Positions 1,811 through 48,062 are shown, counted from the stretch's first letter. The stretch is 64,000 nt of DNA from Bacteroidota bacterium (GCA_947479755.1 CANKAM010000007.1:58057-122056); one strand, 5' to 3'. The notes: generated by a model not told the origin, from the letters alone. Program-made: numbers and translations.

Positions 1811-1957
1811 ATGACCAAGCCGAAAAGAAAAATTAGCAAAACGCCACAAAAGAGGATTAAAGTGCAGTTGGATTACAAAACCATCATCACTATTAACAGA
1901 ATGGAATCCCTGAAACTTTGGCTCGAAAGATACCCGGAAGCAAAGGTTCTTGCATAA
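1811..1957 (+). CDS. small basic protein of unknown function (48 aa)
   Basis: A short, Lys/Arg-rich protein beginning MTKPKRKISKTPQKR with a more ordered second half (VQLDYKTIITINRMESLKLW, then a pattern like LERYPEAKV). The ORF track starts at a TTG 81 bases upstream; I prefer the ATG because the preceding sequence is AT-rich spacer and the upstream residues look non-coding. It has no signal peptide or membrane segment. The basic tail could bind nucleic acid, but that is a guess. It stands alone between a plus-strand metabolic gene and a minus-strand block. Confidence 0.5.
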   Translation: MTKPKRKISKTPQKRIKVQLDYKTIITINRMESLKLWLERYPEAKVLA

Positions 1958-2099
1958 GAACCAAAAATTTATCTGACAGGAAAGCTATTTTGTCATGTTT
2001 GACATGCTTCCTAATCTATTATCAGTTCTTGATATAGATTTCTATCAAAGAAGACTATTAATATTGGCTTTTAACTCTAAAAGCTAATTATTTTATATT

Positions 2100-2981
2100 T
2101 TATCGCTTAATAATCAATTTGCCCGTAGAAATCTGAATTTCTCTTCTATCAGAAACTCTGTAAATATATGTTCCATTGGTAAGATGAGCGATATTTACAT
2201 CTTGCTTATTTTCACTAACCTGAAATAATCCGACTTTTCTTCCTGTAACATCAAACAATTCAAGATTTGCATCTGTTTTTAAATTTATAATATGCAATGT
2301 GTTTTGAGCAGGGTTGGGTCCAATACCAACCTTTAATGTTGTTGAGTGATTTTGAATTCCTGTATTATCAAAAGCAAAAGCTAAATCGTCTATAAATAAG
2401 GTGGATCCCACAATTCCATGGTCGCCTGCACATGAAATTAAAACAATAACTGCGGTGTCGGGAGTTGCACCTGAAACATATTCAATAGAATCCACAAATT
2501 GTTGGTAGCTGGTAGTATTCTGGATAAACTCAATACGTGTATGCCCTACAACATCACGTGATGTCCCGTTCCATTTACTCAATGTTACTTCTACAGAGCC
2601 GGTATCCCCATTAACAGGGTTATAAATATACCAGCCTGTCATGGAAACAGGGCGTTGATCATACGCTATTCCTCCGCTGATACTTCCATCTGTGTTAATA
2701 ACTCCGGTTGCACATATTCCGGGGACAATAAAAGTGGAAATTGTTTTTGTTACTAGTCTAATTGCACTTGAACCACTATGAATTTCACCTGCTGTAGTGG
2801 TTTTTATTGCCGTTCCTCCGGGTAATACAGATGCTATTAATGAATTAATAGTGCCCCAACCATTGGGGTCGTCATAGCCTGGTCCGGCTGTCCAATCTTC
2901 AAAACCAGGATTAGGTATAGATTGTGATTTTGTATCAATTGAAAAAAAGGCTAATAAAATTATTGGTATTAATTTTTTCAT
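2100..2981 (-). CDS. T9SS-exported protein with PCMD-like domain, paralogue A
   Basis: 293 residues: a signal peptide (MKKLIPIILLAFFS...KSQS), a beta-rich body and a C-terminal T9SS type A sorting domain (GPNPAQNTLHI, TGRKVGLF, GTYIYRV, basic end). The body contains PGFEDWT near the N-terminus, AIRLVTK, GVINTDG, RPVSMTGWYIYNP and KWNGTSRDVVG. This order resembles the putative carbohydrate-metabolism domain PCMD (PF13201), a beta-sandwich found on Bacteroidota surface proteins. It is a clear paralogue of the plus-strand protein at 10517-11404: the same segments occur in the same order. It is the last gene of a five-gene minus-strand block. Ligand unknown; the domain assignment is by eye. Confidence 0.8.
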   Translation of the reverse strand: MKKLIPIILLAFFSIDTKSQSIPNPGFEDWTAGPGYDDPNGWGTINSLIASVLPGGTAIKTTTAGEIHSGSSAIRLVTKTISTFIVPGICATGVINTDGSISGGIAYDQRPVSMTGWYIYNPVNGDTGSVEVTLSKWNGTSRDVVGHTRIEFIQNTTSYQQFVDSIEYVSGATPDTAVIVLISCAGDHGIVGSTLFIDDLAFAFDNTGIQNHSTTLKVGIGPNPAQNTLHIINLKTDANLELFDVTGRKVGLFQVSENKQDVNIAHLTNGTYIYRVSDRREIQISTGKLIIKR

Positions 2982-3017
2982 ATTTTTTTTGTTTGGTATT
3001 AAAATTAAAGGGATGTT

Positions 3018-4655
3018 TTATTTTATAACTATTCGCTGAACAGATTGATAATTCCCGGCTGAGATTGCGACCAAGTAGATCCCTGCTGCATATTTCTCAG
3101 GGAATTCAATTTCATCTAAATAATTTCCGGCAGGTTTATTTTTTTGAGTCATCAGCAGTGATTTTTCGCCCAAAACGTTAATGAGTTCAACTTTAAGATC
3201 TGAAGTAGTTGGTAAAATATAATTCATCGAAATCATATCTGATGCAGGATTTGGAAAGACAGTTACTTTAAGAGGATTACTATCAGGATTATCAATACCC
3301 GATAACAAGTCTCCATAAATATATTGAAAGCCCATTACCATCATTTCCTCTTCAGAAGTTAACCCCCAATAAATGGTATCAGAGGTGTAATTTCTATATC
3401 GGGCGCGGTGTATCCAACCTAAACGGGGGTCAACCTGTAGAAAATTATCATAAAATCTAAATGTAGCATCCACACCAAAACGGTGATAACCTACATTAAA
3501 GTCCTGCTCATAGCTGTACCAGCTTTCATATTCCTGTGTACCCATTGTTCCGTCAGGATTACGAAGAAAGATATCATAGTCGGTTCCGTATTTGTGCGTG
3601 TGTCCATATAGTTGCCATACTTTCCAGTATTTGGTTTCATTTACATCGTTTGCTACCTCAACAAACTCATGTTCTATATTATCCGGAGGAATGGCAATAC
3701 TAAAAACCGGATAATTTCTGATAAGCATAAAATCTGAAGCAGTGCCAATGGGTTGCGTGTAAATGTTCATATAAAGATCGCAAGCCATAACGGTGTCAGG
3801 GTTTGGGTTGCGTATATGAAGGTTGAGATCAAGAACAGAGTTTTGCGCCCAAAAATAGGCAGTTCCTGTAGGCAAATCATATTCCCACATATTGGGTCCT
3901 GTTCCTATTCCATCCGTAACATCAGCATGTGAACTCAGTGCTTCTGGTCTTAATCCTTCAGCATAGTTATTCTCACCACCGGGAGAAAATTTATAAATTA
4001 CGAAGTGATGTGTGTTTGATGGGAGCAGAGTAACAACTTTTGGTATTTCAATATTGCTTGATAAACGTGGGTCATGTTTAATATAATAATAATCTTCAGT
4101 GGCCGGGGGCACTAAGATTTTTCCGATATAAATCTGGAAGCCTTCTCCGCTTGCGGGTGGAGTTGGATTTGGATAAGAATCATCTTTCCCGGCTCCGCTG
4201 TAATACAAATCTATTACATCAGTATCCACAACTGTTCCGGTTTGAGGTGCACCTCGCAAAATCCATTGGCGCATCAGTTCAATTTCTTCCTTCGCTAATG
4301 AAGTAAGACCGCTGGGCATATTATTTCCTTCTGTTCCCGCCAGAGTCATGTGAATATTATTTTCATTTAAACCATGTACAATTTTGCGTAAAAGAAAACT
4401 ACGGTCAACATATCCGGGTGTTATTAGTTTGTCACCTTTTGCAGCAGCAGTGGGATTAACCGGAGTTGCATTTACCAAAGCTGAATACAGTGCAGATTCA
4501 GAAAGAGTAACATTGAACGTTGGTGTAACTCCACTATGACAGCTTGCGCCTGCACAGTTGGTTTGAAGGAGTTGATGAATCTGTGTAAATGTGCTTTGTG
4601 ACTTTACATTGATGGAAAGAAGCGCGAAGAAAATAACGGGTAAAATATTTTTCAT
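3018..4655 (-). CDS. secreted cytochrome c-like / PHM-type copper monooxygenase fusion, T9SS cargo (copy 1)
   Basis: 545 residues with four parts. (1) Signal peptide to about residue 19. (2) Cytochrome c-like domain, residues 22-135, with C34AGASC39H40, a CX4CH motif instead of CXXCH, and a candidate distal Met113 in NNMPSG. (3) A region of about 170-450 carrying all six copper ligands of peptidylglycine-hydroxylating/dopamine-beta monooxygenases in order: H216-H217 (THHFVIYKF), H280 (LHIRNP), H352-x-H354 (GHTHKYG) and Met438 in TSEEEMM. (4) T9SS sorting domain (VFPNPASD to the end). The fold oxidises C-H bonds using two copper ions, O2 and an external electron donor. The heme domain could be that donor, which is inference. 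It lies 34 bases downstream of its paralogue. Substrate unknown. Confidence 0.8.
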   Translation of the reverse strand: MKNILPVIFFALLSINVKSQSTFTQIHQLLQTNCAGASCHSGVTPTFNVTLSESALYSALVNATPVNPTAAAKGDKLITPGYVDRSFLLRKIVHGLNENNIHMTLAGTEGNNMPSGLTSLAKEEIELMRQWILRGAPQTGTVVDTDVIDLYYSGAGKDDSYPNPTPPASGEGFQIYIGKILVPPATEDYYYIKHDPRLSSNIEIPKVVTLLPSNTHHFVIYKFSPGGENNYAEGLRPEALSSHADVTDGIGTGPNMWEYDLPTGTAYFWAQNSVLDLNLHIRNPNPDTVMACDLYMNIYTQPIGTASDFMLIRNYPVFSIAIPPDNIEHEFVEVANDVNETKYWKVWQLYGHTHKYGTDYDIFLRNPDGTMGTQEYESWYSYEQDFNVGYHRFGVDATFRFYDNFLQVDPRLGWIHRARYRNYTSDTIYWGLTSEEEMMVMGFQYIYGDLLSGIDNPDSNPLKVTVFPNPASDMISMNYILPTTSDLKVELINVLGEKSLLMTQKNKPAGNYLDEIEFPEKYAAGIYLVAISAGNYQSVQRIVIK

Positions 4656-4689
4656 AAAAATATTGGTTTAGGGTAAAGTTTTAAGTTCG

Positions 4690-6345
4690 TTATTCAAAAA
4701 TAATTTTTGCGGTTTGATTTCCTGAATTAGTTGAAATGGTCATGGAATAAAATCCCGGAGTAAGACCTAATGCGCTTTGACTTAGCTGCAGTTTTTGTTT
4801 GCCTTCGGTTATTGAAATGTTTTTAGAATAAACTTCTCTGCCCATCATATCCAAAAGAAGAATCGTGCCTTCTGAAGAATTGTCGCAGTTGAATGAAAGG
4901 TTAATAATATCTCGTGAAGGGTTGGGATAAACATTAAAATAATTAAAAACACTTTCTTCTTCTTTAACACCGATGGTTACAGGTTCTGTGGTGTATTGAA
5001 TATATGAAACAAACATTTCATCGGTAGTTCTCAGTCCGAAATAAACCGGATCCGGGCCGGGGTTATTATACATGGTTTCATGTATTAAACCATCAGAAAA
5101 ATCAACTTCCAGCATGGGGTCAAATGTGCGGAAAGGTGGATGCGCCCAGTCGTAATACCCTTGGTTAAAAGTATAGTCAGTATTATAATGCCCGTCATAA
5201 ATAAGGTCACCTTTAGTGCCGTCTGAGTTGCGCATCCAGATATTGTATTCTTTACCTAATTGGTGTGTGTGAGCCATTATTGACCAGATATACCAAGTAT
5301 AAGCCGAGTCGGCATTAAAATGATTTATAGTATAGATTGAATCGAGTCCGGTTCCCGGAATAACAAGGTTTGTTGGATCATCTCCACCATAATAGATTGG
5401 ACCGGCAATCATTTCGGTTTGGGCTGTGCCAATGGGTTGTGTATAAACATTTGAATATACTTCGGCAGGAAGGATTGAATCTTGATTGTAATTTGGAATG
5501 TGGTAATTCAAGTCAATAACAGAATTTGCTTCCCAACTAAATGCTGTACCCTCAGGAAGAAGAAGGTCTTGACTGTTGGGCCATTGACCTAAAATGTTAC
5601 TGGTGTAATAAACGCCTGCTGCATCAAGAACGGTGTTCACCGGTCTTAATCCGGGAAGAAAATTTGAATCTTGTTGGGGGTAATATTTATAAAGTGCGGT
5701 GTGATGTGAGTATTCATTAATTTCGGTATTGATACGATATACCTCTTTTGCCGCAGGCATCTTAGTGGCATATTTATAGAAAACCTCTTTTTCTGTTGCG
5801 GGAGCTAAAAAGAAGGGCCCATAATGAACCTGAAAACCTTCTGATGGGTCAGGTGGGGTAAGACGAGGAATTCTTGGCATTCCAGGTCCGCTGTAATAAT
5901 CAGCCAATACCTGGATGTCAATATAATGATTAGTATCACCAGCTCCCCAAAGAATCCACTGGCGGATAAGTTCAATGTCTTTGTTGGCCATTGCTGGTTG
6001 TCCGCTGGGCATTGGATTTCCCATTTGATTGGTCAGATGATTAACACCCACATCTATAGCATTTGCCACCTTTTTGAAAAGAAAACTGCGCTCGGGATAA
6101 CCGGGGTCAACTAATTTATAACCGGCTGTATTTGCTGCCGGGTTTACAGGGGTAATATTTATCAGGTTTTGATAAACTGATGAAGTGGAACCTGACAGGT
6201 TTAATTGTGCAGATGGGCTTCCACCACTATGGCAGCCTGTTGTACATTTTGTTTGAAATAGAGTATGAACTTGCTCAAAAGTTGATTGCGCAAAAAGGTA
6301 ACTTGATAAACTAATTAGCTGAATTGAAAGCAGAAATTTTTTCAT
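4690..6345 (-). CDS. secreted cytochrome c-like / PHM-type copper monooxygenase fusion, T9SS cargo (copy 2)
   Basis: 551 residues from the ATG at 6345. The tracked start at 6408 runs into the upstream gene and precedes an obvious signal peptide (MKKFLLSIQLISLSSYLFAQ), so it was rejected. The layout equals copy 1: a cytochrome c-like domain with C34TTGC38H39 (a CX3CH motif) and Met112 in GNPMPSG. Copper ligands follow at H214-H215 (YSHHTALYK), H282 (YHIPNY), H359-x-H361 (AHTHQLG) and Met444 (TTDEMFV), then a T9SS sorting domain (VYPNPSRD). The two copies differ widely in sequence and in heme spacing, so the duplication is old and may have separated substrates. The enzyme should act outside the cell or on its surface. 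Confidence 0.8.
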   Translation of the reverse strand: MKKFLLSIQLISLSSYLFAQSTFEQVHTLFQTKCTTGCHSGGSPSAQLNLSGSTSSVYQNLINITPVNPAANTAGYKLVDPGYPERSFLFKKVANAIDVGVNHLTNQMGNPMPSGQPAMANKDIELIRQWILWGAGDTNHYIDIQVLADYYSGPGMPRIPRLTPPDPSEGFQVHYGPFFLAPATEKEVFYKYATKMPAAKEVYRINTEINEYSHHTALYKYYPQQDSNFLPGLRPVNTVLDAAGVYYTSNILGQWPNSQDLLLPEGTAFSWEANSVIDLNYHIPNYNQDSILPAEVYSNVYTQPIGTAQTEMIAGPIYYGGDDPTNLVIPGTGLDSIYTINHFNADSAYTWYIWSIMAHTHQLGKEYNIWMRNSDGTKGDLIYDGHYNTDYTFNQGYYDWAHPPFRTFDPMLEVDFSDGLIHETMYNNPGPDPVYFGLRTTDEMFVSYIQYTTEPVTIGVKEEESVFNYFNVYPNPSRDIINLSFNCDNSSEGTILLLDMMGREVYSKNISITEGKQKLQLSQSALGLTPGFYSMTISTNSGNQTAKIIFE

Positions 6346-6391
6346 TATTGAAATTAATTTTGTGTAAATATATTTTTTTCTATTGTATTTA

Positions 6392-7129
6392 TTATTTACC
6401 TGACACAATCATTCTTTTTGTAATGCGTGTCTTGCCGTTGGCTATGGTATAGAAATAAGTGCCCGGAGCAAGCTTTTCAGCACTGTAATTAATGGAGTTT
6501 ACTCCGCTTACTGCATTAATCTTACTGCTGTGCACGGCTCTGCCAAGCATATCAAACACATAAAAAGTAACAGTTTCCGATGTTGGGCTGTTGAACTTAA
6601 TGGTTGTAGTGCCGCTAAAGGGGTTTGGTATGTTTTGTATCACATCAAATTTGGAGGTGTTGAGTGTTTGAATACCCACATTACCAACATATAGTGTAAA
6701 TACATCAAGTGAGTAAGGAAGCTCAACCGTATCTAAATCTAATAGACCATAAACTATTACATCAAATAGTATGGGATAAACACCTACGGTATCATTTACT
6801 GTTCCGTTAATAATAAAGCATCCCTGTGTTCCACCGGGGTAGGTGCAGGTACCCAAAGTGCTGTTGCATTGGAAGGAAAGCCCTACGGGCATTCCGGTTA
6901 TGGAAGCCAGTTTAATACTGTCAATATGAACGGTAACAACAGAAATGGTGGTATCGGTTGGAACGGTTACGGTCATAGTCTGGTTATAGGTTTCACCGGG
7001 GTTTACAATACTGTCGGGCAGCATGGGGTAAACTAATCCTACAGCATTGGGGTCGGTTGTGCATACCTGGGTAAAGCCGGTTGCCGAAACTGCGATAATA
7101 AGTAAGAGTGCGAGGTAGATTTTTTTCAT
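6392..7129 (-). CDS. small T9SS-exported protein with an Ig-like/putative adhesion domain
   Basis: 245 residues: signal peptide (MKKIYLALLLIIAVSATGFTQ), one beta-rich domain of about 140 residues and a T9SS sorting domain (QNIPNPFSGTTTI, DMLGRAV, GTYFYTI, TKRMIVSGK). The domain contains the sequence MPVGLSFQC and the Cys-bearing TLGTCTYPGGTQGCF. Its pattern recurs at the N-terminus of the 968-residue protein at 26597-29503 (MPAGLAYSC, then SRGCVKICGTP), so the two share a module. It is encoded 46 bases upstream of copy 2 of the copper monooxygenase on the same strand. The function is unknown; binding or structural support at the cell surface is plausible. Confidence 0.75.
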   Translation of the reverse strand: MKKIYLALLLIIAVSATGFTQVCTTDPNAVGLVYPMLPDSIVNPGETYNQTMTVTVPTDTTISVVTVHIDSIKLASITGMPVGLSFQCNSTLGTCTYPGGTQGCFIINGTVNDTVGVYPILFDVIVYGLLDLDTVELPYSLDVFTLYVGNVGIQTLNTSKFDVIQNIPNPFSGTTTIKFNSPTSETVTFYVFDMLGRAVHSSKINAVSGVNSINYSAEKLAPGTYFYTIANGKTRITKRMIVSGK

Positions 7130-7162
7130 TTTGGGTTTGGTTGTTTATTATTGATTTGTTCT

Positions 7163-8836
7163 TTAAATTTTTACTGCGTTTATAAAAAAATTGGTTTGGT
7201 TACCTGAAATTTTTATGCGGTATGAACCCCGTGGTATGTTGAGTTGAAGCACGTTTAACTCAAACTGCTGTTTACCCGGCTTTGTAACAGTTATGTTTTC
7301 TTCAACCAATTTTTTACCCAACAGGTCAGTCATTTCCAATTGATATATCCCTGTTTCGGTTACGGTAAACTCTATTTGTGCTGTTTCTGCAAATGGATTA
7401 GGAAAAATGTGTGCATCATTCAGCGTGTTTTGCCCCTCATTTATTGCGGCTGGGTATTGCTTGAGTATTGTAAATTGATCCTGTATAACACCACCGGCAG
7501 TTAGGTAATGCGCATCAAGGCGGTCACCATCAATATCAATAAAAAGTGAACCTAAGCAGGTGTCGCACAGTTGCATGGTAAACATTGACGCTATTTCAAC
7601 CGGGTTATAGGCGCTGTTACTGCTGCTGTTACCTGCTATTGCATAAACAGTTCCTTTTCCGGCCTGCGGCCCTGTAAGATATTTAACGTATGCCTCGCCT
7701 AAAGCATCGTTTCCGCTGGTGCCGTTAACTAACATGTCTGAAGTAAACGAGGCATTTAGTCCATAATGTCCGTTAATCAAATGGCTGCGCTGGTAGCTGT
7801 GGTCGTGTCCGTTAAGCACCAAATCAACGCCATACTTTTCAAGTATTGGGTTAAAATGCCTGCGGCTGGATTTGCAAAAGGGCGACCAATCAGTAACAAA
7901 CTGTGCTGCACTGTAAGGCATCTGATGCCAAAAGGCTATTTTCCATTTTTTGGTAGTGGCTGCAAGATCGGCTTTCAGCCATGCTATCATGGGCGAAGTA
8001 AAACTGGTATCTGAATCGGTTACCCCTAGCCAATCAAAGGTAGAATCTTGTGAGCCAATCTCTGAATTGAGTGAAATGAAGTGGATATTACCGTAATCAA
8101 ATGAATAAAATATTTTGAGGTTAGAAGGCACACCACCTAATTCACCATGTGTTGGAGGGTCAATAATATCAAGATACGGACCTGTGTGAGTGGCAGGATC
8201 TAAGGTGCAAAAATCCGGCTCCCAGGGGCAAATGCTGTTGTAATCATGATTGCCTGAGGTAGAGGCAAAAGGCAACTTTGGAAACAGATGATGATACCCG
8301 TAGATACTGTCAAATACTTTTACGGTATATTCTGAATCGGTGCCATCGTAATAAGCATTATCGCCCAACCAAAGCCAAAGGTCGGCAGGTTTGGTAGCGG
8401 CAGCGTGTTCAATATAAGATTCGCGCACCAATGCTTGTCCGTCATTTCCATGTCCCATATCACCCATAGCCCAAAGCCTTACAGGGGTAGTGGTGTTGGT
8501 ATCGGGTGCGGTGGTAAAATAATAGTTAGAATTGGTTGCCCCCAACATTGCTGCGCTACTGCCTACGTTGTAAAAATATTTGGTGTGAGGCGCAAGCGCA
8601 GTAATTTTTACGCGATGCTCGGTAGTAACATTTGCACTGTCAATAATAAAATCGGTTGAGCCCAACGTTGAACCATAATAAACGCGGCTGTCGGTAGCCA
8701 CATCTGTGCGCCAGCGCAAAATCATGCTGGTTTGTCCGGGACTTTGCAGATAGGGTCCGCGGATGAGAGTTTGAGATTGCGCCTCAGAAATTACAGCTAA
8801 AAAAAGGAAAAATAAGATAATGTGTTTCAGTTTCAT
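7163..8836 (-). CDS. purple acid phosphatase-like metallophosphoesterase, T9SS cargo
   Basis: 557 residues. After the signal peptide there is a fibronectin-like purple acid phosphatase N-domain (RGPYLQSPGQTSMILRWRT). The calcineurin-type catalytic domain follows with its metal motifs in order: AMGDMGHG, WLGDNAYYDG, STSGNHDYNS, FWHQMPY and LNGHDHSYQR. A T9SS sorting domain closes the protein (FPNPFAETAQI). The family hydrolyses phosphomonoesters with an Fe-Zn, Fe-Mn or di-iron centre. Outside the cell it would release phosphate from organic phosphate. It is the first gene of the five-gene secreted block and is divergent from the gene at 8931. Confidence 0.88.
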   Translation of the reverse strand: MKLKHIILFFLFLAVISEAQSQTLIRGPYLQSPGQTSMILRWRTDVATDSRVYYGSTLGSTDFIIDSANVTTEHRVKITALAPHTKYFYNVGSSAAMLGATNSNYYFTTAPDTNTTTPVRLWAMGDMGHGNDGQALVRESYIEHAAATKPADLWLWLGDNAYYDGTDSEYTVKVFDSIYGYHHLFPKLPFASTSGNHDYNSICPWEPDFCTLDPATHTGPYLDIIDPPTHGELGGVPSNLKIFYSFDYGNIHFISLNSEIGSQDSTFDWLGVTDSDTSFTSPMIAWLKADLAATTKKWKIAFWHQMPYSAAQFVTDWSPFCKSSRRHFNPILEKYGVDLVLNGHDHSYQRSHLINGHYGLNASFTSDMLVNGTSGNDALGEAYVKYLTGPQAGKGTVYAIAGNSSSNSAYNPVEIASMFTMQLCDTCLGSLFIDIDGDRLDAHYLTAGGVIQDQFTILKQYPAAINEGQNTLNDAHIFPNPFAETAQIEFTVTETGIYQLEMTDLLGKKLVEENITVTKPGKQQFELNVLQLNIPRGSYRIKISGNQTNFFINAVKI

Positions 8837-8884
8837 TGTGTCAAATCTGCCTCAATAAACCGGTAAGGCAAAAACTTTTTTGTT

Positions 8885-8892
8885 TAGTTTTG
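8885..8892 (+). promoter_or_regulatory. -7 promoter box TAGTTTTG
   Basis: Exact TAnnTTTG match in the 94-base divergent gap, 38 bases before the ATG of the plus-strand gene at 8931. No good TTG lies at the usual distance upstream. Confidence 0.4.
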
Positions 8893-8930
8893 TACGAGTT
8901 GCTTAATCTTAATAAGAGTAAAAATACAAT

Positions 8931-10421
8931 ATGAAAAAACAAGACGAAGCCTTATTTCAATTAATAGAATCACTCAGCACCAATGAAAAAGGACATTTTG
9001 TAAAATACACCTCAGCCCTGCCGGGAATAAAAGGGTTACGGTATATGCAGCTATTCAACATCTTGAGTAAAATGAAAGACTATGATGAAGGACTGCTTCA
9101 AAAAAGACTTACTAAACTCAGTTTCACTAAACAAGCGCATCGCGTTCGACATTATTTGTACCAGTTGCTGCTCAATTTTTTAGAAAGCTACCACCGTAGT
9201 GAAACAGAAACAGAAACAAACTTAAAACTGCTGCTAAGGGCTTCTATATTGAGTAGCCGCAGGCTCTACAACCAGTCAAATAGTTTGTTGCGAAAGGTGG
9301 AAGCATCAGCAAAAGGAACGGGTATGCGCTCACAAAAAATTGAAGCCCTGAAATTGCGTTTACATAATGAGCAAGGGCTTAATAATTCTCATGCCGAGCA
9401 TCCCATACTTGAAGAAATAAACAGGGAAGCAATGCTGAACTATTGGGTTTCGGAAATCAATAAACTAAACACGTTTTTTTATGACCGATATGAGCAGATT
9501 GGTAGTGCAAAAACAAAAGAAGAAAAGGAAAAATATATGCTTCTTTTCAACAGGGTAAATACCCTAATTGATGAAGAAAAAATGGACCCTACAGGACTGA
9601 TAATTTTGCTTAACCTGCGTTTTATTTATGGAGTAATGATTAATGCCAAAAAATTTTCGCAGAAAGCCTTGGATCAAGGATATCACCTTATTATGACTAT
9701 CCCTGATTTACAGAAAAATAAAAAATTATTTTCCTTTTTCAGTGATAATTATATGTATTATTTTCTTCATCTGAAAGCGTTCAGTAAAGTGAAGAAAAAA
9801 TTGGTAGAATTAAACCAATGGTTAGATAAGCAACACTTCACAAAAGAAGAACACGATACCATAAGGCGTATCATTTATTTACAAAAATTTGACCTCCTTT
9901 TAGCCGACCATAATCTGCTTGCTGATACTGATTTTATAACCGAATTATTCAACTGGTTTGATACCCATAAATTGATTGATATTTATGAAAACCATTACCA
10001 CTTTAATAAGGTTGTTTACCACCTGTACACAGACCAGTCCAAAGAAAGCCTAAAGTATATAAACCTGTTGCGCAACAACCGTGAGTATAGTTTGCAGCAT
10101 CCGCAGCAAAGCACAGAACTTGAGTTTCTGAACATAATTATACACTGTAAGTTAGGCAATATTGAACTGATGGAAAGCCTTGTAAGTAGTCTGAAAAGAA
10201 AAACAATCCGGGCAGCGGTTGAACATTCTGTTCCTCATTCCGACATGGTTGAACTGTTTGCTAAGTATTTCAATAGCCATTCTTTACAAAACACGGCCAT
10301 CCTGCAAGCTGCGTGGGAAGAAGAGCTAATCACCGATTTAAAGAAACTGTTCCCGAAAACACCGCAAAAAATAGAGCCTCTTACCTTTGATTATGTGTGG
10401 TATTTTGAAGAGGTGTTTTAA
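8931..10421 (+). CDS. all-helical cytoplasmic protein of unknown function (496 aa)
   Basis: I do not recognise a named family. The protein starts MKKQDEALFQLIESLSTNEKG, has no signal peptide or membrane segment, and is rich in Leu, Lys and Glu with heptad-like helices throughout. This suggests an alpha-solenoid or TPR-like scaffold. The first 100 residues (helices around KMKDYDEGLLQKRL and HYLYQLLLNFLESY) look like a separate domain. Neighbours give little help: it is divergent from the phosphatase and followed by a T9SS cargo gene with its own likely promoter. Confidence 0.75.
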   Translation: MKKQDEALFQLIESLSTNEKGHFVKYTSALPGIKGLRYMQLFNILSKMKDYDEGLLQKRLTKLSFTKQAHRVRHYLYQLLLNFLESYHRSETETETNLKLLLRASILSSRRLYNQSNSLLRKVEASAKGTGMRSQKIEALKLRLHNEQGLNNSHAEHPILEEINREAMLNYWVSEINKLNTFFYDRYEQIGSAKTKEEKEKYMLLFNRVNTLIDEEKMDPTGLIILLNLRFIYGVMINAKKFSQKALDQGYHLIMTIPDLQKNKKLFSFFSDNYMYYFLHLKAFSKVKKKLVELNQWLDKQHFTKEEHDTIRRIIYLQKFDLLLADHNLLADTDFITELFNWFDTHKLIDIYENHYHFNKVVYHLYTDQSKESLKYINLLRNNREYSLQHPQQSTELEFLNIIIHCKLGNIELMESLVSSLKRKTIRAAVEHSVPHSDMVELFAKYFNSHSLQNTAILQAAWEEELITDLKKLFPKTPQKIEPLTFDYVWYFEEVF

Positions 10422-10516: not shown

Positions 10517-11404
10517 ATGAAAAAACTTTTACTTTCAGCATCGGTTTCAATTCTTTTCTCTGGAATTGTATCTGCACAAATTAACAACGGAGGGTTTGAA
10601 ACATGGGCGGCTGATGGCAGCAACTGTCAGTCTCCGGTTCAATGGGGAACACTTAACGGCAGCACAAGCGTTTTAGGTATCTGCACAGCAACAAAAGAAA
10701 CTGTAAATATTCATGGAGGTGCAGCGGCACTTAAGTTAACAACAAAATTTATCGGTTTCCCTATTAACCAAATGGCACCCGCTCTTTGCACAAATGGCGT
10801 TATTAATACTACCACACAGGCTATTGATGGAGGAGACCCTTTCACAGAAAGACCTGTTGCATTTACAGGTTGGTATTTAGCAGCACCATTAAGCGGTGAC
10901 CAATATTCTTTTGAAGCTGCTTTAACCCACTGGAACGGTTCTTCAAGAGACACTATAGGCAAAGCAACTTTTTCAGGAACGGCTACAGTTAGTGTTTACA
11001 CGCAATTTACTGCAACAGTAATATACACCGATGTTATTAATCCCGATACACTTATTGTAGCTCTGCTTCCAAGTAATCCTGTAACACCTGTAGCTAACAG
11101 CTCTGTTACATTTGATGATTTGGAATACACAAGTTCAGGTGTTGGTATCAATGCTGCCGATGCTAAGGAACGCATTACTGTTTACCCTAACCCGGTTTCT
11201 GAAAACCTGTATGTAAACATGGCAGGTATCTTAGGTGCAAATGTTTCAATCTTTGACATCACCGGCAAAAAAGTTGCTCAGCAAATTCTTACCGAAAAAC
11301 TTAATAGCGTTAACGTTGCTTCATTGGCAAACGGAATGTATGTTTATCAGGTAAACAGCAACACAAACGGAACTTTGAAAACAGGTAAGTTTATTGTGAA
11401 ATAA
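10517..11404 (+). CDS. T9SS-exported protein with PCMD-like domain, paralogue B
   Basis: 295 residues with a signal peptide (MKKLLLSASVSILFSGIVSA), a beta-rich domain and a T9SS sorting domain (VYPNPVSENLYV, ITGKKVAQQ, GMYVYQV, TGKFIVK). It shares with the protein at 2100-2981 the segments GGFETW, AALKLTTKF, GVINTTT, RPVAFTGWYLAAP and HWNGSSRDTIG, so the two are paralogues on opposite strands about 7.5 kb apart. The resemblance to PCMD (PF13201) is by pattern only. An inverted repeat and a strong terminator follow immediately, so this is a single-gene unit. Confidence 0.8.
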   Translation: MKKLLLSASVSILFSGIVSAQINNGGFETWAADGSNCQSPVQWGTLNGSTSVLGICTATKETVNIHGGAAALKLTTKFIGFPINQMAPALCTNGVINTTTQAIDGGDPFTERPVAFTGWYLAAPLSGDQYSFEAALTHWNGSSRDTIGKATFSGTATVSVYTQFTATVIYTDVINPDTLIVALLPSNPVTPVANSSVTFDDLEYTSSGVGINAADAKERITVYPNPVSENLYVNMAGILGANVSIFDITGKKVAQQILTEKLNSVNVASLANGMYVYQVNSNTNGTLKTGKFIVK

Positions 11405-43796: not shown

Positions 43797-46700
43797 ATGA
43801 AAAACTTTTACTTTTCACTTCTCACTTTACTTTCGTTTTTAATAGTATTTATTCCGGATGATGCGAATGCTCAATCTTGCACTGCTTTTACATCACAACA
43901 AAATGCAACCTGCAATGGCGGATGCAATGGCTCAGGTACTGTAACATTTTTCTTTGGTGGTGGTGGTGGTACTCCAGCATACTCATGGAATACAAATCCT
44001 GTTCAAACTACAGCAACAGCAACTAACTTGTGTGCTGGAACTTATGTTGTTACTGTAACGGGCAACAACGGCTGTGTTGACCAGGCATCAATTACTATTA
44101 CCCAGCCACAGGCAATTAGCGCTACTACAAGTCAGGTTAATGTATTGTGTTATGGAGGAACAACCGGCTCAGCTACAATAACAGTAAGCGGAGGAGGAAC
44201 TTATACTTATTCATGGAATACCAATCCTGTGCAAACAACTCAAACCGCAACTGGGCTTACAGCGGGAACTTATACCGTAATTGCAACAAATACTAATTCA
44301 GGTTGCACGGTTACCAGAACTGTTACCATTACTCAGGGGCCTCAAATAACAGGAAGCATCTCTACAACACCTTCAGACTGCGGACAAAGCACCGGAACAG
44401 CAACTGCTTTAGCAGCAGGTGGAACGAGTCCATACACCTATTCATGGAATACAAATCCGGTTCAGACTACCTCAACAGCTACAGGACTTGCAGCAGGTGA
44501 CTACATCGTTACTGTTACCGATGCAAATGGATGCACCCAAACTGGTCCAGCGACAGTTGAAAATATCGGAGGCCCTGAACTATCTGCTTCAGTAACAAAT
44601 ATAAACTGCAGTGGTGGAGATAATGGAACTGCTACTGTTACCCCAACAGGAGGGACAGCACCTTACTCCTACTCCTGGAACACCTCACCCGTTCAAACCA
44701 CTCAAACTGCTATTGGATTAACAGCAGGAACTTACACCGCAACAGTTACAGACGGAGAAGGCTGTTACGAAACTATTGATGTTACAATTATTGAGGTAAA
44801 TTCAATGATTGTAACTACCACTCAGATTAATATCTCCTGCAATGGAGGAGCATCGGGTTCAGCTACGGCCACAGGTGCCGGAGGAACAGCGCCTTATTAC
44901 TATTTATGGAATACTGTTCCTTCACAAAATGGGCCAACTGCATCAGGGCTTACAATTGGAACTTATACGGTTACAGCAGTAGATGCAAACAGTTGTTCAG
45001 CAACTGCAACGGTAACAATTACACAGGCTGATGTATTTGTTACTACAACCGATCAAAACAACCTAAGTTGCAATGGCGAAAATGACGGAACAGCAACTGT
45101 AAATGTTTTTGGCGGAAATCCCCCTTACCAATTCTCATGGAACAGTAATCCTGTTCAAACTACACAAACCGCAGTTAATCTTGGCGCAGGAAATTACACG
45201 GTAACAGTAACAGATGTAAGCGGGTGTGTTACTACTGCGGGTGTAACAATTACTCAACCGGCTGCAATAACTTTAAGTGCAAGCGCTACAACTACATCTT
45301 GCGGACAAACAGCAGGAACAGCTACTGCAACAGCCAGCGGAGGAACCGGACTTCTCAGTTATTCATGGGATACTAATCCTGTGCAAACAACTGCTACAGC
45401 AACAGGGCTTTCAGCAGGTACTTATACTGTAACTGTTACGGATGAAGGTAATTGTACGGCATCTGCGTCAGCAACCGTAACCTCACCGGGCGGACCATCA
45501 TCTACAACTACACATACTAACGTTAGTTGTAACGGTGGAAATAATGGAACAGCAACTGTTACAGCAACAGGAGGCTCACAACCTTATACTTATTCATGGT
45601 CGGGCGGACAAACCACACAAACTGCATTTGGTTTAACTGCAGGAAACTATACAATTACCGTTACTGATCAGTCAAACTGCACCACACTTTCTACTGTAAC
45701 TATTACAGAGCCACTGCCGCTTTCTATCAGTATTGAAAGTGAAAACGTTCCGTGCAACGGATTGTCTTCCGGCTCAGCAACAGCAACCGTTACAGGAGGT
45801 GTTTCAGATTACTCTTATTCATGGGATACACAACCTGAAGAAACTACCGTTGCAATAAGCGGATTGGATGCAGGCACATACACTGTAACGGTTACAGATA
45901 ATAATGGATGTGAAGCAACAGCCTCTGCAAGCATCACTGAACCGGCTGAATTAACAGCCGCCACTATTCAAACGCATGTATCGTGCTTTGGAGAAACAAA
46001 TGGTGCAGCAACTGTAAATCCTGTGGGAGGAACACAGCCATATTCTTATTCATGGAATACTAATCCTGTGCAAACAACTCAAACAGCTATTGCTTTAACG
46101 GCAGGCGGCTATTCGGTTGTGGTTACAGATGCCAACGGATGTACTGTTACCAAACAAGTAACCATTACACAGCCATCGGCTTTAACTACTAACTATACAA
46201 CAACGCCTGAAGATTGTGGTCAAAGCAACGGAAGTATTGCTGCAACGGTTAGCGGAGGAACAGGTGCTTATTCATATTCATGGAACACTAATCCTGTTCA
46301 AACAACAGCAACAGCAACAGGACTTTCTTCAGCAACCTATACCTTAACGGTTACAGATGAAAACGGATGTGTTGCCACACTTAACGTAAACCTTCCTAAC
46401 GCAGGCGGACTTAATGCAGAAGCTACCAGCACGAACGTAAGTTGCAATGGAGGCGCCAACGGAACGGTAACAGCTAATGCTTCAGGAGGAGCTCAGCCTT
46501 ATTCTTATGCCTGGAACACAAACCCGGTTGAAACTACACAATCAGTTACAGGCTTATCAGCAGGAACATATACAGGAACCGTAACGGATGACAACGGTTG
46601 TGTATTTACTGTAACAGCAACAGTTACTGAACCGGAAGCCCTTACAGTAAGCGCTGAATTTGAAAATATCCTGTGCAATGGTCAGGCAACAGGCTCCGCA

Positions 46701-48062
46701 ACTGCAAACGTTGTTGGCGGAACTACTCCTTATGCATATGCATGGGATACTGAACCAAGCCAAACCACATCAGCAATTTCTACCCTTACTGCCGGCATTT
46801 ACACTGTTGCGGTAACAGATGACAATGGATGCGTTGCTTCTGCAACAGTAAATATTACACAACCGGCAACTGCGCTTACCGCAAGTGTTATAAAAACCAA
46901 TGTTTCGTGCAATGGTGGAAACAACGGAGCGGCAACTGCCAACCCTACAGGGGGAACAGGACCTTACACCTATAGCTGGAATACTGTTCCTGCTCAATCT
47001 GCACAAACCGCTTTTGGTTTACCTGCCGGAAGTTATACGGTTGTAATTACCGATGCCAACGGTTGCACCATTTCAAAAAACACAACCATCACCCAGCCTG
47101 CAGCAGTTGAAACAAGTCTAAGTGTTGTTCCTGCTGCCTGCGGTCAACCAACCGGCTCGGCAACAGTTACAGCAAGCGGTGGGGTGGGTAACTTTACCTA
47201 TTCATGGAACACAACACCTGAGCAAACTACCGCAACGGCTTCGGCACTTGAAGCCGGAATTTATACCGTTACTGTTACCGATGGAAACGGATGCGTTTCA
47301 ACTGAAACAGCAACCGTAAATAATGAAAATGCTCCGCTGTTAGATGCTACAGCTACTAACGCAAGTTGCTTTGGTGCCGACAACGGTATAGCAACAGTAG
47401 CAGCATCAGGTGGTTCATCGCCTTACACCTATTCATGGAACACAAATCCGGCACAAACTACTTCTACTGTTACAGGTCTTGCACCGGGCAGTTATGTGGT
47501 TAGTGTTACAGACGATGGAGGATGTACATCATTTGCAACTTTAGCCATTATAGAGCCAACCGCTATTACCACTTCTACAAGCAGCAGCGACCCAACCTGT
47601 GATGTGTGTGCTGACGGAAGTGCAACTGTAAATGCTTCAGGCGGAACTCCTGGATACACTTATATTTGGAGCAACGGACAAACAGGTGCTACAGCTTCTA
47701 ACCTTGCCGAAGGAACGTATTGTGTTACCGTTACCGATGACAATGGCTGCGAAACCAATACCTGTGTTACCTTAACGGCTCTTGTTACCGGTGTTGTTAA
47801 TGCATCGCTGTCTGAAAACTCATTTACAGTTTACCCTAACCCAACTTCAGGTTCTGTAACTGTTGAACTGGAAACTTCACAGCTTTCAACTATTACCTTA
47901 ACACTTACAAACATGCTTGGACAAAACATCGTGAGCCAGCAAAGTGAAGTAAATGGTTTATTCAAACAAGTGTATGACTTATCTGCTTTTGCAGAAGGGC
48001 TTTACTTTATTACTGTGCGTTCAGAAAATGAAACGTTGTTGAGGAAGGTGATTAAAAAGTAG
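43797..48062 (+). CDS. giant SprB-repeat T9SS surface protein (1421 aa)
   Basis: Signal peptide (MKNFYFSLLTLLSFLIVFIP), 17 tandem SprB-type repeats of 74-80 residues and a T9SS sorting domain (VYPNPTSGSVTV, FAEGLYFITV, RKVIKK). Each repeat has a conserved Cys near its start, a GGT-PY-YSWNTNP core, a TATGL-AGTYTVTVTD turn and an NGC-type end. Every fourth unit (3, 7, 11, 15) carries CGQ instead of CNGG, so the array is a four-unit block repeated about four times. SprB in Flavobacterium johnsoniae is a mobile gliding adhesin; here the repeats point to a fibre or adhesin, with no gliding evidence. Single-gene unit with a strong terminator. Confidence 0.93.
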   Translation: MKNFYFSLLTLLSFLIVFIPDDANAQSCTAFTSQQNATCNGGCNGSGTVTFFFGGGGGTPAYSWNTNPVQTTATATNLCAGTYVVTVTGNNGCVDQASITITQPQAISATTSQVNVLCYGGTTGSATITVSGGGTYTYSWNTNPVQTTQTATGLTAGTYTVIATNTNSGCTVTRTVTITQGPQITGSISTTPSDCGQSTGTATALAAGGTSPYTYSWNTNPVQTTSTATGLAAGDYIVTVTDANGCTQTGPATVENIGGPELSASVTNINCSGGDNGTATVTPTGGTAPYSYSWNTSPVQTTQTAIGLTAGTYTATVTDGEGCYETIDVTIIEVNSMIVTTTQINISCNGGASGSATATGAGGTAPYYYLWNTVPSQNGPTASGLTIGTYTVTAVDANSCSATATVTITQADVFVTTTDQNNLSCNGENDGTATVNVFGGNPPYQFSWNSNPVQTTQTAVNLGAGNYTVTVTDVSGCVTTAGVTITQPAAITLSASATTTSCGQTAGTATATASGGTGLLSYSWDTNPVQTTATATGLSAGTYTVTVTDEGNCTASASATVTSPGGPSSTTTHTNVSCNGGNNGTATVTATGGSQPYTYSWSGGQTTQTAFGLTAGNYTITVTDQSNCTTLSTVTITEPLPLSISIESENVPCNGLSSGSATATVTGGVSDYSYSWDTQPEETTVAISGLDAGTYTVTVTDNNGCEATASASITEPAELTAATIQTHVSCFGETNGAATVNPVGGTQPYSYSWNTNPVQTTQTAIALTAGGYSVVVTDANGCTVTKQVTITQPSALTTNYTTTPEDCGQSNGSIAATVSGGTGAYSYSWNTNPVQTTATATGLSSATYTLTVTDENGCVATLNVNLPNAGGLNAEATSTNVSCNGGANGTVTANASGGAQPYSYAWNTNPVETTQSVTGLSAGTYTGTVTDDNGCVFTVTATVTEPEALTVSAEFENILCNGQATGSATANVVGGTTPYAYAWDTEPSQTTSAISTLTAGIYTVAVTDDNGCVASATVNITQPATALTASVIKTNVSCNGGNNGAATANPTGGTGPYTYSWNTVPAQSAQTAFGLPAGSYTVVITDANGCTISKNTTITQPAAVETSLSVVPAACGQPTGSATVTASGGVGNFTYSWNTTPEQTTATASALEAGIYTVTVTDGNGCVSTETATVNNENAPLLDATATNASCFGADNGIATVAASGGSSPYTYSWNTNPAQTTSTVTGLAPGSYVVSVTDDGGCTSFATLAIIEPTAITTSTSSSDPTCDVCADGSATVNASGGTPGYTYIWSNGQTGATASNLAEGTYCVTVTDDNGCETNTCVTLTALVTGVVNASLSENSFTVYPNPTSGSVTVELETSQLSTITLTLTNMLGQNIVSQQSEVNGLFKQVYDLSAFAEGLYFITVRSENETLLRKVIKK
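43872..47790 (+). repeat. 17-unit SprB coding repeat with a higher-order period of about 920 bases
   Basis: The CGQ-type unit Cys codons start at 44379, 45300, 46215 and 47139, spacings of 921, 915 and 924 bases (307, 305 and 308 residues). The order of unit types repeats with this period. Confidence 0.85.

Follow-up and report, generated by a model that had tools for sequence, protein, structure and literature searches.

The window analyzed here, a stretch of 64,000 nucleotides from a Bacteroidota bacterium, carries two adjoining genes on its minus strand that encode protein A (3018..4655, 545 aa) and protein B (4690..6345, 551 aa, with the ATG at 6345). Both reading frames are intact and separated by a gap of 34 bp, and the two products are 35% identical across their whole length. 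They have the same architecture, in which a signal peptide is followed by a mono-heme cytochrome c module and a copper di-domain of the PHM type, with a type A T9SS sorting domain at the C-terminus. The domain order given in an earlier note on this DNA (cytochrome c-like domain, copper ligands, T9SS domain) is thus present in both. The signal peptides were read from the sequence, and the predicted mature N-terminus of A as well as B lies near a shared QSTF at residue 20. The sorting domains (3024..3260 in A and 4699..4932 in B; these and all features below are on the minus strand unless marked otherwise) exceed the cut-offs of both Por_Secre_tail (PF18962; 35.3 bits in A, 42.6 bits in B) and TIGR04183 (38.9 and 39 bits, respectively).

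The PHM-like copper di-domain covers 3312..4169 in A and 4990..5853 in B. In A the candidate ligands of the His3 copper (CuH) are HH216/217 (4005..4010) and H280 (3816..3818), and those of the His2Met copper (CuM) are H352 and H354 of HTH352-354 (3594..3602) and M438 (3342..3344). The corresponding residues in B are HH214/215 (5701..5706) and H282 (5500..5502) for CuH, and H359 and H361 of HTH359-361 (5263..5271) and M444 (5014..5016) for CuM. Of the Pfam families Cu2_monooxygen and Cu2_monoox_C, just the latter exceeds its cut-off, and it does so in B alone (27.2 bits against 23); A matches no copper-related family, and neither protein matches a cytochrome family. The assignment in the earlier note therefore rested on the ligand pattern HH, H, HxH, M. 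To quantify the conservation of this pattern we used 95 non-redundant homologues (<95% identity, median approximately 42% identity to B) from the window's own genome and from 78 loci found by scanning a single genome for each species, all titled Bacteroidota or uncultured bacterium. It is clear that the His and Met positions do not vary freely among homologues, which the earlier note had named as a reason to abandon its assignment: the columns for all six ligands are 100% invariant in every one of the 95 homologues covering the site, and so is the Glu preceding the CuM Met. B has 14 His columns, of which exactly six are invariant, namely the five of the copper sites and the one of the heme motif, and among the 95 homologues no conserved Cys was found outside the heme motif.

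An AF2 model of B, with its core built from a 90-sequence alignment, reached a mean pLDDT of 93.9 and a pTM of 0.90. When this model was compared with the PDB using Foldseek, the 31 best matches were all human dopamine beta-hydroxylase (DBH) or rat PHM (1.9e-13 to 2.3e-9; best values 1.9e-13 for DBH and 7.8e-13 for PHM, TM by target up to 0.62), and the next unrelated fold appeared only at 7e-7, so that structure prediction returned the PHM-type core that had been proposed. A family profile built without PHM sequences also ranked PHM chains first among its sequence matches in the PDB, with a weak E-value of approximately 0.05, and it sets HH, H, HTH and EM on PHM H107/H108, H172 (H280 in A), H242/H244 and E313/M314 (the Met being M438 in A). 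Single-sequence phmmer searches against the PDB gave no match for A and matched only the T9SS tail of B; they were uninformative, and profiles were needed. Judged by ligands and predicted fold, the cores of A and B belong to the PHM/DBH type, and the invariance of the copper sites speaks for a chemistry that the family has kept.

A and B have in common with rat PHM (PDB 1phm, 1sdw) the two-domain copper core, the aligned ligands in the same order, the Glu before the Met, the HTHxxG motif and secretion. They differ from PHM in the heme c module fused in front, in the T9SS tail, in having no lyase (PAL) domain, in R240, N316 and Y318, which are not conserved, and in the absence of PHM's disulfides, as there is no conserved Cys to form them. 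Human DBH (PDB 4zel), the best fold match, resembles A and B in that its copper core is preceded by an extra N-terminal domain, but this is a DOMON domain, not a cytochrome c, and DBH uses ascorbate.

The cytochrome c module comprises residues 20-138 in A (4242..4598; from the profile match to FoxE and cytochromes c6, and from AF2) and residues 20-137 in B (5935..6288; from the homologue alignment, AF2 and the profile match). The heme-binding motifs are CAGASCH in A (C34/C39/H40; 4536..4556) and CTTGCH in B (C34/C38/H39; 6229..6246). The cytochrome c-like domain of the earlier note is upheld by the Cys, Cys and His, which are invariant across the 95 homologues covering the site, and by the profile match to FoxE, with the correction that the spacing is CX4CH in A and CX3CH in B. 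Across the 95 homologues we counted CX2CH in 35, CX3CH in 36 and CX4CH in 21; a spacing that varies from two to four residues (rarely more) inside one family, while the Cys residues themselves are strictly kept, is unusually loose for a site of heme attachment. The candidate axial heme ligands are M113 in A (4317..4319) and M112 in B (6010..6012), and this Met is kept in approximately 88% of homologues (80 of the 90 aligned). The MP motif is found in 82 of the 95, leaving 13 without it. In three core reading frames (L060, L069, and L079) Cys-Pro replaces the axial Met-Pro; by analogy this suggests His/Cys heme ligation as reported for TfcP.

A heme-module profile, made from the first 128 positions and including stand-alone relatives, matched FoxE (PDB 5mab) at 3.8e-4 and several cytochromes c6 at approximately 0.01 in the PDB, the similarity lying around C-CH, PGxPExS and MP...IxxWIxxGAP. 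Unlike A and B these cytochromes have no copper domain, and FoxE is diheme. AF2 predicted the isolated heme module of A to be helical (pLDDT 87.5, pTM 0.84), and Foldseek found no match for it below E = 1 in the PDB; at the level of the predicted fold the module resembles known cytochromes poorly. The pTM of 0.90 for the whole B chain suggests that the heme module is placed in a defined way relative to the copper domains. The heme module also occurs alone in short lipoprotein-like reading frames (L096, L098, and L099) and in front of a repetitive C-terminal domain (L101), and the copper core occurs alone in L104, showing that these are separable modules that have since been joined.

The earlier note drew attention to the tandem pair. 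The two genes do adjoin, but such an arrangement is not unusual, since seven cytochrome c-PHM proteins are encoded in this genome and Cu2_monoox proteins of Bacteroidota typically carry the fusion. Five of the seven belong to the subfamily of A and B (A and B, two proteins encoded in tandem on contig C18, and a single one on C16), and two are distant CXXCH relatives on C46 and C42. Copies were found in 7 of 7 sampled genomes of the family, with three to six per genome. In a distribution survey that sampled Bacteroidota only, 35 of 395 genomes matched the profile, 21 of those with the heme and copper parts together, and Cu2_monoox_C exceeded its cut-off in 32 of the 395. A heme c motif lies N-terminal to the HH in 33 of the 35 Bacteroidota Cu2_monoox_C proteins inspected (B included), and the two exceptions are one copper core alone and one protein cut by a contig end. 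The fusion is thus the normal state in Bacteroidota, and heme motif and copper domain do occur on one chain in other members of the phylum. The tree contains two deep subfamilies, an SHH type and a VHH type. A and B fall into separate clades in it, both of them old, well supported and represented by orthologues in further genomes. Together with the 35% identity this rules out a recent tandem duplication; by their position in the tree, A and B are old paralogues.

The CXXCH proteins (C46, C42, L107, and L109-L112) have a heme motif and PHM ligands ordered as in A and B, and some are T9SS-tailed. They differ in forming a separate clade, in the CXXCH motif and in having, for the most part, VHH or LHH rather than SHH/THH, with approximately 142 residues from the heme to the HH. 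No relative of B was found in the plasmid collection, where a type II query gave one unannotated PHM-like stretch, in Nonomuraea, and the PHROG comparison gave no match.

As for the substrate, the residues R240, N316 and Y318, which contact the substrate in PHM, are not conserved. Among 90 homologues the R240 position is occupied by S/M/T/Q/G/Y, the N316 position by V/L/I/G/A (mostly V/L/I) and the Y318 position by Y/F/G/I/V. The peptidyl-glycine of a peptide-amidating PHM is therefore an unlikely substrate for A and B. At the R240 and Y318 positions A has Y350 and G442 where B has M357 and Y448, so the copies are indeed divergent, as had been noted, and since they are old paralogues that differ at these two positions they probably act on different substrates.

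A T9SS-tailed PCMD (PF13201) protein is encoded 36 bp downstream of A (2100..2981) and is a possible partner. A PCMD homologue adjoins the cytochrome c-PHM genes at 8 of 8 B-clade loci; it lies upstream of B in divergent orientation or, as in the window, downstream of A on the same strand. This conserved association is the sole lead to the substrate, which might be a glycan or a surface protein associated with the PCMD neighbour. The lead is weak, because PCMD is annotated only as 'putative carbohydrate metabolism' and because the eight loci, being orthologous, do not count as independent cases. Six PCMD-like stretches occur in the genome, of which three are close relatives and only one exceeds the Pfam cut-off; a second PCMD-like T9SS protein lies in the window at 10517-11404 on the plus strand. 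The block from 6392 to 10421 may be an insertion, since a divergent PCMD gene directly adjoins B at other B-clade loci. A gene for a T9SS-tailed protein of unknown function (6392..7129) lies just upstream of B and is possibly co-transcribed, but we rejected it as a functional partner because it is absent beside homologues elsewhere, except at the near-identical locus L013. The T9SS-tailed purple acid phosphatase encoded further upstream on the same strand (7163-8836) was rejected likewise, being absent beside the pair at other loci, and the GluRS/GlnRS gene next to the C18-type pair was treated as incidental.

Export and maturation appear to be provided for, since genes for the T9SS sortase PorU (1395.7 bits) and for Cytochrom_C_asm (cytochrome c assembly) proteins are present in the genome. 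ResB was not found in the genome; given the presence of Cytochrom_C_asm, a missing heme-attachment pathway is no objection. Another T9SS-tailed protein of the window (43797-48062; 1421 aa) has approximately 15 SprB repeats and is adhesin-like.

PHM chemistry takes two reducing electrons per turnover, and in animals ascorbate supplies them. The reading we consider likely is that A and B are exported O2-dependent copper hydroxylases of the PHM/DBH type that act at the cell surface and are fed by their own heme c. Heme c would be attached covalently in the periplasm and the proteins exported to the cell surface by the T9SS, where the Met-ligated heme would accept electrons one at a time from a donor at the cell surface or in the periplasm and pass them to CuH. 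O2 activation by CuH and CuM would follow, leading to hydroxylation of a C-H bond in a substrate outside the cell, and the heme would stand in for ascorbate as the reductant. We infer that a covalent heme ahead of the copper core serves as the electron entry, which is the simplest reading, and retention of the fusion in two separate subfamilies would be expected if heme and copper work together. In heme c-tethered copper nitrite reductase and in cytochrome-LPMO systems the tethered heme feeds the copper site, but the copper folds and chemistry are unrelated to those of A and B and the comparison is an analogy only. O2 activation at a Met-containing copper has been described for PAM and DBM (PMC10371230). 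Against the electron-fed reading we count the weak E-value of 0.05 to PHM, the isolated heme module without a fold match, the 13 of 95 homologues without MP, the PHM-only L104, and the fact that no dedicated electron donor is encoded beside A and B.

Some of the same observations would fit a copper core that is an active PHM-type monooxygenase supplied by small reductants, with a cytochrome module that donates no electrons and could instead be structural, sense O2/NO or redox state, or assist secretion or metal loading. We regard this as unlikely, because the two electrons needed per turnover, the invariance of the heme Cys, Cys and His together with an axial Met kept in most homologues, and the same module order in two distant subfamilies all speak for a donor, while the loss of the axial Met in some homologues (with Cys there in three), the existence of L104 and the precedent of TfcP from Myxococcus xanthus, a cytochrome c whose published role lies outside electron transport (PMC8833165), speak for the alternative. 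It is more improbable still that A and B bind heme and copper without being monooxygenases, as a surface copper binder, a metal or phenol reductase or oxidase, or an H2O2-dependent enzyme. The lost PHM substrate residues, the lack of evident substrate genes and the identity of the nearest cytochrome relative in the PDB, FoxE, which is an Fe(II) oxidase, would agree with such a role, but simple metal binding does not need this exact ligand set, and both copper sites, including the O2-site Met and its preceding Glu, are invariant in 95 sequences. A chance resemblance, in which a coincidental ligand pattern sits on a generic beta sandwich, could draw on the copper core of A that Pfam does not recognize and on the family-profile E-value of just 0.05 to PHM, but it is effectively refuted by ligands that are invariant and in register with PHM and by the 31 DBH/PHM chains that rank above every other PDB fold.

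Returning to the heme-fed surface hydroxylase, no account of a protein joining cytochrome c and PHM turned up in the literature searched, which covers few subscription journals, and the architecture may already be listed in domain databases. PHM and DBH are known mainly as ascorbate-needing animal enzymes. As we read it, the table of a 2020 metalloproteome review has PHM and DBM only among the eukaryotic-type cuproproteins (PMC7435645). The present data point to a widespread and apparently unstudied class of bacterial surface oxygenases, which, if the reading is true, would constitute an O2-dependent modification system at Bacteroidota surfaces. Should the bacterial branch take in electrons through a heme of its own, their passage into CuH could be traced optically via that heme, and this would bear on how electrons pass between the two distant coppers. 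A tentative and rather doubtful extension is that these are phylum-wide, ascorbate-independent PHM-type surface monooxygenases with a tethered heme c that hydroxylate PCMD-linked extracellular polymers or surface glycans, as a third chemistry of the fold beside peptide amidation and amine hydroxylation.

Related genes also form longer arrays. Locus L057 has three head-to-tail cytochrome c-PHM genes (3878-9493), and L064 has four (1859-9497), followed by a convergent gene for a T9SS-tailed M43 metalloprotease. On contig C46 of the window's own genome (L001), the type II cytochrome c-PHM gene directly adjoins a PaaA-like gene (65-1003 and 1138-2760), which, judged by eye, resembles a phenylacetyl-CoA epoxidase subunit.
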